The notes beneath the pieces were generated by a model. The model worked only from the letters and a program-made list of their open reading frames with translations. It did no database searches and was not told the DNA's origin. From positions 1-54,904 of the forward strand of contig JAKMCX010000238.1 in the NCBI GenBank assembly GCA_022428285.1: a stretch of DNA of 54,904 bases, given 5' to 3'. The position numbers and the translations under genes are program-made. The stretch comes from Flavobacteriales bacterium (GTDB lineage Bacteria; Bacteroidota; Bacteroidia; Flavobacteriales_D; Sanyastnellaceae). This document shows positions 16,370 to 24,540 of this stretch, one piece after another. How positions within the stretch are numbered: position 1 is the first letter of the stretch; every line of letters starts with the position of its first letter.

Positions 16370-16795
16370 ATGCCCGGATTGAACAAAGTCATGCTCATTG
16401 GCCACCTCGGCAAGCCACCTGCCTTGCGCTGGCTGGAAAGTGGGCAAGCCTTGTGCAAGCTGTCTTTGGCGACTTCCGAGCGCTACAAAGACCATGAGGG
16501 CAACAGCCACGAACGCACAGAATGGCACCAAGTCGTTTTGTGGCGAGAACTGGCAGAAATTGCCGATCGCTATCTGACCACGGGCCAAAAGGTTTACATC
16601 GAAGGGCGTTTGCGCACCCGCACTTGGCAGGATGCCAACGGCACAGAGCACCGTTCCACAGAGGTGATCGCAGACAGAATGGAAATGTTGTCCCCCAAAG
16701 GCGACTCCGAATCAGACCCAAGCGCCAAGGAGGCCAGTCCAACAGAGCAGAAACCCGGACCATTCCACATGGATGCCTCCAAGCTGCCCTTTTGA
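16370..16795 (+). CDS. ssb: Single-stranded DNA-binding protein
   Basis: The 141-residue SSB has an OB fold from LNKVMLIGHLGKPP through about residue 105, with the WHQVVLW and YIEGRLRTRTW strands. A short disordered acidic linker follows, and the tip ends DASKLPF. The LPF end used to recruit repair partners is kept, but the usual run of Asp before it is weak. gldE begins 3 bases after the stop, so the two are translationally close, as in other Bacteroidota. Confidence 0.93.
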   Translation: MPGLNKVMLIGHLGKPPALRWLESGQALCKLSLATSERYKDHEGNSHERTEWHQVVLWRELAEIADRYLTTGQKVYIEGRLRTRTWQDANGTEHRSTEVIADRMEMLSPKGDSESDPSAKEASPTEQKPGPFHMDASKLPF

Positions 16796-16798
16796 CCC

Positions 16799-18700
16799 AT
16801 GGACAACCTGATGGGCATTCACCTCTGGATTGCAGCGCTGGGATCGCTGCTGCTGCTGGTCGCAAGCGCATTTATATCGGGCAGTGAAATCGCGTTTTTC
16901 TCGCTGACGCCCCAAGACCGGCAGTCGCTCGAAGAAGCCGAGGACGGCGCTTCAAAAATGGTGTTCGATCTGTTGAACACCCCTGACGCAGAGCGTGGCG
17001 CCCGACAATTGTTGGCCACCATCTTGGTGCTCAACAACACGGTAAACATCGTCATCATCTTGCTGTCGACGGCCTTGATGCAGCACTGGCTTGTGGCCCT
17101 TCCACCCATCATTGGAACTGCGCTGCATGTGTTTGGCGTGACCTTTTTGATTGTGCTGTTCGGTGAAGTCTTGCCCAAGGTGTACGCCAACCGGCATCCC
17201 CTCACCTTGGCCCGTCGCATGGTCCGCGTGTTGACTTGGTCCAAAGGGATTTTGAGGCCCATTTGGCAGCCCTTGAACGCCATGGCAGGGTGGCTGGCTC
17301 CGTCTGCTGGGCCTACTGTCGACCTCTCTGTAGAGGACTTGGAGCACGCCGTGAACGTCACCGATTCTGCAGAGCGATCCGAGGAGGAAAACCGCATTCT
17401 GAGTGGCATTGTCAACTTCGGCTCCAAGGATGTCAAACAAATCATGCGTCCGAGAACGGACGTCACCACTTTTTCGCACGACCTGCCTTGGTCTGAACTG
17501 AAAGCCGCCATTTCGGATTCGGGATTCAGCCGTGTTCCAATCCACGCGGACGGTTTGGATCAAGTCAAAGGCATCCTCTACGCCAAAGACCTGCTGCCCC
17601 ATCGCAATGCGACCGACTTTGACTGGAACACGTTGCTCCGCCAGCCTTTTTTCGTCCCAGAAAACCGGATGATTGACGATCTGCTGCGGGACTTTCAAAG
17701 CATGAAGGTTCACCTCGCTGTGGTGGTGGACGAGTACGGAGGGACCAGCGGCATCGTGACGCTGGAGGATGTCATTGAGGAAATTGTAGGGGACATCTCC
17801 GATGAATTTGACGACGAAGATGTTTTGTACTCCCGGATCGACGAGCACACCGTCGTCTTCCAAGGCAAGACCGCCTTGGTCGATGTCTACCGCATTCTGG
17901 AATTGGATGGTGCGGCATTTGAAACGGCTAAAGGAGAGAGCGATACCCTGGGCGGGTTTTTGGTGGAGCAGCTGGCCCGCCTCCCAAAACCCGGGGAGTC
18001 CGTGACCTTTGAAGGCATTCGATTGGTGACGGAGGCCGCCGATCGGCGCCGCGTACTGCAGGTCAAAGTGATCATGAATGAGGGGCCTGCCCGAAAGCCT
18101 GGTCATGGCGGCCAACCGCTGCGCCCCGGTGGCACAGGGGCTGCCGTTGCGCTGCTTGTCACCGCTTTGGCTTTTTGTTCTGGTTGCAGCTCTCCGCCTC
18201 CGGTGCCCCGTCCCGCAGGGTACTATCGAATCGCTGTGCACGACACGACTTTCGAGTCCGTGGCGCTCAGCTGCCCTTTGACGCTGGACATGGCCAGCGC
18301 GGCCACAATGGAAACCGTACAAGAGTTTGCGCCTGACAGCTGCTGGTTCAACATCGTTTACCCGCGCTACAAAGCCCGAATTCACTGCACATATGGTGGA
18401 GGTGTGGCCTTGGAGCCCGTCATGGAAGACGCCTTTAAACTCGCCTATGAACACGAGATCAAGGCCGACGCCATTGAGGTGCGCAAGCGTGAATACGAGC
18501 AAGGCGGCGTGGCGATCACCTGGCGCATTGCTGGAAACGCAGCCAGCCCGCTCCAATTTCTCTGCACCGACGGCGAGGATCAATTTCTGAGGGGGGCACT
18601 GTACTTCGAAGTCCGGCCCAATGGCGACTCTTTGGCACCCGTCACCTCCCGATTGAATGCCGATGTGGAACACCTCATGGCAAACCTGAACTGGTGGTGA
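16799..18700 (+). CDS. gldE-gldD: GldE-GldD in-frame fusion, gliding motility/T9SS
   Basis: One 633-codon frame joins two proteins normally encoded by adjacent genes. Residues 1-425 are GldE: a DUF21 membrane domain with about four hydrophobic helices (SGSEIAFFSL near the start), two CBS motifs (about 220-340, HLAVVVDEYGGTSG) and a CorC_HlyC domain. Residues 426-463 are a basic, Gly/Pro-rich linker followed by AAVALLVTALAFCSGC, which looks like a lipoprotein signal. Residues 470-633 are GldD. No stop separates them. An in-frame ATG at 18074 (residue 426) could start a separate GldD lipoprotein, so two products are possible. GldE and GldD are needed for gliding in Flavobacterium. coaX overlaps the 3' end. 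Confidence 0.85.
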   Translation: MDNLMGIHLWIAALGSLLLLVASAFISGSEIAFFSLTPQDRQSLEEAEDGASKMVFDLLNTPDAERGARQLLATILVLNNTVNIVIILLSTALMQHWLVALPPIIGTALHVFGVTFLIVLFGEVLPKVYANRHPLTLARRMVRVLTWSKGILRPIWQPLNAMAGWLAPSAGPTVDLSVEDLEHAVNVTDSAERSEEENRILSGIVNFGSKDVKQIMRPRTDVTTFSHDLPWSELKAAISDSGFSRVPIHADGLDQVKGILYAKDLLPHRNATDFDWNTLLRQPFFVPENRMIDDLLRDFQSMKVHLAVVVDEYGGTSGIVTLEDVIEEIVGDISDEFDDEDVLYSRIDEHTVVFQGKTALVDVYRILELDGAAFETAKGESDTLGGFLVEQLARLPKPGESVTFEGIRLVTEAADRRRVLQVKVIMNEGPARKPGHGGQPLRPGGTGAAVALLVTALAFCSGCSSPPPVPRPAGYYRIAVHDTTFESVALSCPLTLDMASAATMETVQEFAPDSCWFNIVYPRYKARIHCTYGGGVALEPVMEDAFKLAYEHEIKADAIEVRKREYEQGGVAITWRIAGNAASPLQFLCTDGEDQFLRGALYFEVRPNGDSLAPVTSRLNADVEHLMANLNWW

Positions 18701-19488
18701 ACTTGGTGCTCGACCCCGGAGGAACCCGGCTCAAATTTGCCCGCTCCGCGGGAGGCCCATTGCAATCGGTTCACGCATTGTCTTGGTCGGCACTGCGCGA
18801 AGCAGGCGCCCGAGAAGCCCTGACGGGTGCGGCGCCTTGGCTGTTGGACGCGAAAGGGCGCATGGACTTGCATGTGCTGCACCGTCCCGACCCTCCCGCT
18901 GCTGGGCCGGATTGGCGACGGGCCATCACCGATGCGCTGCCGGCATTGGATGTGACATGGAACGTCATTGACCCGTTTGAAGACTTGGGGTTCGAAATGG
19001 GCTACACGGACGGTCGGCCAGGCGGCGACCGCATAGCGGCTGCCATAGCCTGTCAGCGCAAGGACCCAGGAGGAAGCTTTATCATCATCGATGCAGGCAC
19101 TTGCATCACCATTGACCTCCTCTCGCCAGGAAAATGGCGCGGGGGTGCCATTTTGCCTGGACTCAGGCTGCAAGCCGCTGCCATGCAGCAGGCCGGATTG
19201 CCGGAATTGCGCCCCGATGCCCATCAAAACTGGCCCGCCGCTGCCCAGGCCAATGGCGCGCTTGGGACAGATACCCTGCAAGCGTTGGCGGCAGGCATTG
19301 CCTTTGCCACACAAAAATCCACCGAGGCCATAGCCCGCGAATTCAAGGCCATTGACCCCTGCGCACAGGTCATCCTCACCGGAGGAGACGCCGCACATTT
19401 TGATGGTGTGGGGGGATGGCAGACTTTCGCAGACCCAAATTTGGTTCTCCAAGGATGCGTTACCCTGCTCAACGAGCGAAACCCATGA
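18694..19488 (+). CDS. coaX: Type III pantothenate kinase
   Basis: CoaX (264 residues) phosphorylates pantothenate in the first step of CoA synthesis. The ASKHA-fold motifs are visible: an N-terminal phosphate loop LVLDPGGTRLKFA, GGDRIAAAIA in the middle, IIIDAGTCITID, and GGAILPGLRL. The phosphate loop differs from the usual DIGNT, with Pro and Gly substitutions. The start is GTG at 18694 or 18697, overlapping the end of gldE-gldD. The stop overlaps the start of the next gene (ATGA). Position after gldD is the conserved Bacteroidota order. Confidence 0.88.
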   Translation: MVNLVLDPGGTRLKFARSAGGPLQSVHALSWSALREAGAREALTGAAPWLLDAKGRMDLHVLHRPDPPAAGPDWRRAITDALPALDVTWNVIDPFEDLGFEMGYTDGRPGGDRIAAAIACQRKDPGGSFIIIDAGTCITIDLLSPGKWRGGAILPGLRLQAAAMQQAGLPELRPDAHQNWPAAAQANGALGTDTLQALAAGIAFATQKSTEAIAREFKAIDPCAQVILTGGDAAHFDGVGGWQTFADPNLVLQGCVTLLNERNP

Positions 19489-23166: not shown

Positions 23167-23226
23167 ATGGCGCACCTGCGTTCCCAAAAGCCCCGAGGTC
23201 TTAACTTGGCTAGACCTGTCTGATCC

Positions 23227-24540
23227 ATGGACCTTGACCCGTCGCATTATTTCGCTCTTGTAGCTGCCCTTCTGGCATCGGCTTTTTTTTCGGGCATGGA
23301 GATCGCCTTTGTGTCCGCGAACCGGCTCCAAGCTGAGCTCGACCGGAACCAAGGAGGATGGGCTGGCCGCTTGGTCGAACACCTTCTGAGACATCCCGAG
23401 CGCTTCATCGCAGCCATGCTGGTTGGCAACAACCTCGCCTTGGTCATTTTTGGTTTGGAATCCGGAGCGCTTATCGCGCAGGCGCTATTCGGGGTAGCCG
23501 ACTGGGAGTCCGCCAGCAGTCCGATGTCTGCGCTCGCCGCGCAAACTGCCATCGCCACCCTCGTGGTTTTGGTGACTGCGGAGTTTTTGCCAAAGAGCTT
23601 TTTTCATGGAGCGCCAAACCGCTGGTTGCGCTTCTTTTCGCTGCCGTTGGTGGTGGCGTTCTATCTGCTGTGGCCCTTGGCCATGGTCGTGCTCGCCTTG
23701 AGCAGGTTGTTTCTGGGAAAACAAGCCGATGATGACGAGGCAGACGGCCTGAGCGCGGTCGATCTGGATGACTTTGTGCGCGGATTGAACGAGCGCATGG
23801 TCGATGAGGACGACTCCTCCTTGGACAATGAGCTGCAAATCCTGCAAAACGCGATGGACTTCTCCAACCTCAAAGCGAGGGACTGTTTGGTTCCCCGCAA
23901 TGAGATTGTGGCGCTCGATGCGTCGGCTTCCCTAGAAGAACTGGACCGCTGCTTCACCGATACGGGATTGAGTAAGGTGGTCATCTACAGGGACAACATC
24001 GACCACGTCATCGGTTACGTGCATTCCAAAGACCTGTTGCGCCGTGCGGCACAAGACGGCCAATCTGGCACCGCAGGCTTGGCGCGGTTCCTGCACCCGA
24101 CGATCATCGTGCCCGAGCCCATGGGTGCACAAGACATCCTTGCGGAGTTCATTCGCCGAAAACGTCACCTCGCTGTGGTCGTAGATGAGTACGGAGGGAC
24201 CTCCGGAATCTTGACCATGGAAGACATTGTGGAGGAATTGATCGGCAACATTGAGGATGAACACGACACCGAAGCACTCGTAGAAATGGAGCTCGGTCCT
24301 GGCCACTACCGCTTCAGTGCCCGGCATGAGGTCGATGACATCAACGTTCGCTTTGACCTTCAACTTCCTGAAAACGAAACGTATGAGACGCTCGGGGGGC
24401 TGGTACTTGACCTCACGGAAGAAATTCCAGAAGAAGGAGACCGCCTCGAACTGGATGGTTTCTCCCTGCTCATCACCCGCGTCGATGGGGCTCGGATTGT
24501 CCTGATTGAAGTCTTGAGAAAAGAGGTCGAAGAGGGCTGA
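23227..24540 (+). CDS. CNNM/CorC-type transporter-associated protein
   Basis: A 437-residue DUF21-CBS-CorC_HlyC protein. Residues 1-160 contain the membrane domain (FFSGMEIAFVSANR, LVGNNLALVIFGLES, a helix-rich FSLPLVVAFYLLWPLAMVVLAL). Two CBS motifs follow (about 215-345), with LVPRNEIVALDAS and HLAVVVDEYGGTSG, then the CorC domain. Such proteins are linked to magnesium or sodium movement in other bacteria. It is a paralogue of the GldE half encoded 6 kb upstream, with near-identical CBS2 sequence. It precedes the PpiD gene, the usual Bacteroidota order. Confidence 0.88.
   Translation: MDLDPSHYFALVAALLASAFFSGMEIAFVSANRLQAELDRNQGGWAGRLVEHLLRHPERFIAAMLVGNNLALVIFGLESGALIAQALFGVADWESASSPMSALAAQTAIATLVVLVTAEFLPKSFFHGAPNRWLRFFSLPLVVAFYLLWPLAMVVLALSRLFLGKQADDDEADGLSAVDLDDFVRGLNERMVDEDDSSLDNELQILQNAMDFSNLKARDCLVPRNEIVALDASASLEELDRCFTDTGLSKVVIYRDNIDHVIGYVHSKDLLRRAAQDGQSGTAGLARFLHPTIIVPEPMGAQDILAEFIRRKRHLAVVVDEYGGTSGILTMEDIVEELIGNIEDEHDTEALVEMELGPGHYRFSARHEVDDINVRFDLQLPENETYETLGGLVLDLTEEIPEEGDRLELDGFSLLITRVDGARIVLIEVLRKEVEEG

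Follow-up and report, generated by a model that had tools for sequence, protein, structure and literature searches.

GldE and GldD are long-known neighbours whose roles are unclear. In other Flavobacteriales, their separate genes stand in the same order and on the same strand as at the locus described here, and a stop divides the two products. GldE proteins of the Flavobacterium johnsoniae type consist of a CNNM/DUF21 membrane domain, a CBS domain and a CorC domain, in that order, and end there; they are encoded just upstream of gldD and near ssb and a mutY-like gene. By its domains GldE is a putative magnesium transporter; the CorB/CorC/CNNM transporters, unlike the fused protein described here, have no periplasmic GldD domain. 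The described GldD is a lipoprotein with its own N-terminal signal peptide and a lipobox cysteine (TIGR03512/PF25593). F. johnsoniae requires GldD to glide and to keep GldJ and GldK stable (reviewed in PMC9127263), and a gldB mutant is partly suppressed when GldE is overexpressed (PMC5395568).

The window analysed here (the whole stretch of DNA, 54,904 nucleotides) comes from a draft genome of 261 contigs that is 90% complete. Its gldE shares the domain order and the surroundings of the F. johnsoniae type, with a mutY-like gene upstream of ssb, but it runs on without a stop into a membrane segment and a full-length GldD domain. The features of the locus are as follows.

16370..16795, + strand: ssb, the upstream neighbour, with its stop 3 nt before the fused gene (ORF; Pfam SSB, 121.5 bits)
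16799..18700, + strand: fused gldE-gldD reading frame, 633 codons plus stop (ORF, Pfam, NCBIfam)
16844..17380, + strand: CNNM/DUF21 membrane domain of GldE, residues 16-194 (PF01595, E 1e-32; helices in the model)
17639..17788, + strand: CBS domain, residues 281-330 (PF00571, E 1.4e-13)
17834..18073, + strand: CorC_HlyC domain, residues 346-425, the predicted cytoplasmic end of GldE (PF03471, E 7e-15)
18074..18133, + strand: variable Gly/Pro linker, residues 426-445, whose first codon is an in-frame ATG (disordered in the model)
18134..18184, + strand: hydrophobic stretch, residues 446-462, putatively the old GldD signal peptide turned into an internal membrane segment
18185..18187, + strand: Cys463, the lipobox cysteine (invariant in the alignment, 15/15 fusions)
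18200..18694, + strand: GldD domain, residues 468-632 (PF25593, GldD_lipo, 151.6 bits; TIGR03512; model pLDDT 91)
18694..19488, + strand: coaX-like type III pantothenate kinase gene, sharing 7 nt with the 3' end of the fused gene (ORF; Pfam Pan_kinase)

Both halves of the protein were recognised over nearly the full length of their family models. The GldE model TIGR03520 scored 490.4 bits against a curated cut-off of 376 (residues 17-426, profile positions 2-407 of 408), the GldD model TIGR03512 scored 148.1 bits against 120 (profile positions 3-181 of 182), and the CNNM membrane, CBS and CorC_HlyC domains all exceeded their Pfam cut-offs. GldE also matched MtCorB (7m1t) and E. coli CorC (4hg0) in sequence and fold, over residues 18-330 and 195-426. 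The single frame across GldE and GldD with no internal stop, which a first-pass annotation had reported from the letters alone, is thereby confirmed, as are its positions for the in-frame ATG (18074, codon 426) and for the lipobox-like CSGC (residues 460-463). Neither a stop nor a conserved start lies between the halves, and the fused GldD differs from the described lipoprotein in that it has no N-terminal signal peptide of a polypeptide of its own. We found no direct or inverted repeats at the fusion junction and, with a simple consensus, no promoter-like sites on the + strand inside the fused gene that could serve a separate gldD transcript.

Since the genome is a draft in 261 contigs, and a single frameshift can merge two overlapping genes, the open frame might in principle reflect an assembly or sequencing error, the more so as one relative (G012) has apparent frameshifts in two other genes. 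The alignment with relatives that the first-pass annotation had proposed makes such an error highly improbable. A gldD match was present in 16 of the 17 genomes of the genus, with one GldD each, and in 14 of these 16 it lay in one open frame with gldE, the genes being separate in G003 and G007. The fused proteins were 53-89% identical to that of the window, so the same frame was open in 14 assembled genomes down to 53% identity, with differing linkers. All of the fused genomes are draft assemblies, and those with titles are metagenome-assembled genomes of uncultured Flavobacteriales, such as UBA1995 and UBA4474. In the main clade (n=13) the linkers were 123-138 nt long and came in five lengths, all multiples of three. 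Frame 0 was free of stops in 13/13 of them, while a stop occurred in another frame in 11/13; when the linker bases were shuffled, each linker stayed open only 11-52% of the time, although multiplying these odds across linkers would overstate the case because the linkers are related. In comparisons among the window and its two nearest relatives, G002 and G010, differences in the linker fell at first, second and third codon positions in the numbers 14/11/25, 17/11/26 and 15/11/29. This third-position excess is what a translated stretch would show, and it agrees with the pair G011/G016 (5/2/8), whereas third positions were not favoured between G001 and G008 (5/10/10). Relatives with separate genes at a junction identical but for one base, which the annotation had named as evidence against a fusion, were not found. 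These comparisons confirm the gldE-gldD fusion as real, with error or chance merger excluded for practical purposes. As for G012, the frameshifted-looking genes are homologues of two conserved window genes (L147; G012:C17:32000-51900) and are probably assembly errors.

The ATG at 18074 had also been put forward as the start of a free GldD that would be made beside the fusion, giving two products from one gene. In the window and its close relative G002 this ATG coincides with the domain boundary, but it is common to these two only; G010 has TTA at this place and the others have other codons. The G001 linker contains no ATG, GTG or TTG, its sole GTG lying one codon before the linker, and the only candidates in the linkers of G012 and G004 are TTGs that fall within the hydrophobic stretch. 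With the ATG restricted to the window and G002, the comparison lends no support to the two-product proposal: internal initiation as a general mechanism appears unlikely, and we would give an additional free GldD, from this or another start, a rather small chance. For the window taken by itself, its sequence would still allow a free GldD start at 18074.

To place the fusion among relatives, we surveyed the family (114 genomes) and samples of the order and the phylum (~400 each, roughly 800 distinct genomes). Among the matches listed, the best ~150 per search, which were ranked such that fusions were expected to stand high and a weakly scoring one could be missed, stop-free fusions occurred only in the genus of the window and in G055, a genome from another family. 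The linker of G055 is different (32 aa), and the genes are separate in G045 and G138, the two relatives listed from its family; by these features its fusion is of separate origin. Two further open frames, in G735 and G550 (654 and 661 aa), were rejected as fusions, being genes in the same frame with stops between them, and the same applied to loci in Flavobacterium and Lacinutrix where one in-frame match ran over both genes, which proved to be separate genes with a stop. Many other relatives have gldE and gldD either overlapping slightly or in a common frame with an intervening stop, so that a fusion is sometimes only one mutation away, and nonetheless it is rarely kept. A search of titles and abstracts brought up no described gldE-gldD fusion that we recognised; the GldE and GldD families are known, and their fusion is new as far as the literature was searched.

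Within the genus, a tree of GldE and GldD separated a main clade (13 fused genomes and G007) from the pair G003 and G004. Parsimony alone could not choose between a single early fusion that was later split twice and a history of two fusions and a single split. The linker of G004, however, has 18 aa against 41-46 residues in the main clade, which favours a fusion of its own there and may make it a third origin. G007 is nested inside the fused clade, although its exact position is weakly supported (37), and its separate genes are probably the result of a secondary split that looks recent and due to a frameshift. At its junction (L016, position 2779) the gldE stop TGA is followed 4 nt on by the gldD ATG in another frame, and the gldD frame is open far upstream of this ATG. 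Poor assembly as the cause of the split was unsupported, since none of the remaining clearly conserved genes across 40 kb of this assembly was broken.

What the fused gene would produce can be outlined from the domains. An in-frame merger of gldE and gldD would have made a linker of the last part of GldE and the first part of GldD, and a single inner-membrane polypeptide would be translated, with the GldE membrane domain and the cytoplasmic CBS and CorC domains first in the chain. The former signal peptide of GldD would then serve as an extra membrane crossing, leaving GldD to face the periplasm. We infer this topology because it follows the domain layout described for CNNM/CorB/C proteins. 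An arrangement of this kind would set a 1:1 ratio and a joint delivery to the membrane of two partners that support the gliding/T9SS machinery. We think it likely that this account holds as a whole, from in-frame merger and one-chain translation through the new crossing to a periplasmic GldD with a probably lipidated Cys463, even though G007 and G003 have separate genes and the fusion is hence not indispensable. An AlphaFold2 model of the fused protein (pLDDT 87.9, pTM 0.46) was confident for both halves and disordered over residues 430-465, with the linker at a pLDDT below 50; it placed no GldE-GldD contact confidently at this pTM, which is no evidence either way.

The separate GldDs of six sister genera (g3, g4, g8, g9, g17 and g20; the family relatives L148-L179 and L191) bear on this topology. 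In these proteins a membrane helix stands directly before the GldD domain; a cysteine is absent before the domain in 28 of the 33, and in the other five it lies inside the hydrophobic stretch. Unless signal peptidase I cuts them, and no site for it was evident, these proteins are predicted to sit anchored in the inner membrane. The family models carry the name lipoprotein, but on these predictions the name does not hold for every GldD. An inner-membrane tether would thus be natural in the family, which supports the first-pass argument that the fusion is topologically possible: a cytoplasmic CorC end, a hydrophobic crossing and a periplasmic GldD all fit what is found among its relatives.

The fate of the chain at Cys463 is a separate matter. 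Signal peptidase II (LspA) may cut before this residue and release an ordinary GldE and a lipoprotein GldD; otherwise GldD would stay tethered. Cys463 and a small residue before it were kept in 15/15 fusions (Gly in 13, Ser in 2) while the linker around them was unconserved, and the lipobox of several fusions is of textbook form (LAGC, LSGC or VTGC). Because the cysteine is readily lost where a plain anchor suffices, as in 28/33 of the sister-genus proteins, the fact that every fusion retains it suggests a continued use of lipidation, and Cys463 is probably still lipidated. The genome also has an lspA-like gene (L144; G000:C11:14325-14648), though its match of 40.8 bits falls below the TIGR00077 cut-off of 73.95; judged by this match, it is a divergent LspA. 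These points argue for a two-part precursor in which Lgt would lipidate Cys463 and LspA would cut before it, a reading to which we give nearly an even chance. If it is correct, the products would be an ordinary lipoprotein GldD and a GldE that ends in an additional C-terminal helix, and the fusion would alter expression only, the end products being the same. Against it stands the lipobox of the window's own subclade, which is degraded: in place of Leu, Val or Ile, position -3 is Gly in five genomes and Cys in the window, and position -2 is Trp in two. Gly at -3 was found in 0/74 separate GldDs, and its presence in five close relatives is probably one ancestral change and not independent evidence, so that a p-value computed from it carries no meaning. 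Nor do we know of a case where LspA cuts after 425 residues of folded cytoplasmic domain, and a literature search for an internal lipobox found nothing.

The same degraded lipobox speaks for a chain that stays whole, in which a permanent tether would hold GldD to GldE in the inner membrane. The anchors of the six sister genera, which look uncleaved and mostly lack a lipobox, point the same way, as does the non-polar run up to the cysteine, which at a median of 18 residues is long enough to span the membrane; a run of this length, however, is also found in the unfused G003 and G007, and the invariant cysteine, the small residue before it in all fusions and the textbook lipoboxes of several of them speak against an uncut chain. 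We regard the permanent tether as possible but somewhat doubtful, and we lean slightly towards cutting. Cutting would make the fused protein a gliding-motility polyprotein, composed of a polytopic CNNM protein and a lipoprotein, which lipidation and LspA would separate at a lipobox inside the chain, after the folded cytoplasmic part. We advance this tentatively, as a reading that falls a little short of even chances; if true, the lipoprotein pathway would be used here in an unusual way, with LspA accepting internal sites.

The fusion has been kept to genus depth and has arisen at least twice, which is evolutionary evidence that GldE and GldD act together; a kept fusion is the expectation if the two are partners in a fixed ratio. 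Together with the cysteine-free, anchored GldDs of the sister genera, it would place the working site of GldD at the periplasmic face of the inner membrane and give this protein a testable location and partner. From the sequence comparisons, then, the pattern suggests that GldE and GldD function next to each other at the inner membrane. The genome of the window has a GldM match above the cut-off (summed score), a GldJ match that is strong (1.9e-113) but below the cut-off, and a GldB match below the cut-off; judged by these matches, components of the gliding/T9SS machinery are present.

Finally, the predicted fold of GldD (window positions 18185-18700, pLDDT 91) was compared with known structures. 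Foldseek returned no significant match for it, and a sequence-profile search with GldD against solved structures found no relative. VIA-align aligned it best with domains of the PsbP/Mog1/LpqN type (PsbP 2vu4, Apa 5zx9, LpqN 6e5d and Mog1 5yfg; Z about 9-10, rmsd 3.2-4 over 125-142 residues), a likeness of a modelled fold that is suggestive only. A second, unfused CNNM/CorC paralogue is encoded at 23224-24537 of the window, ~5 kb downstream of the fusion, and lies at a similar distance in many relatives.
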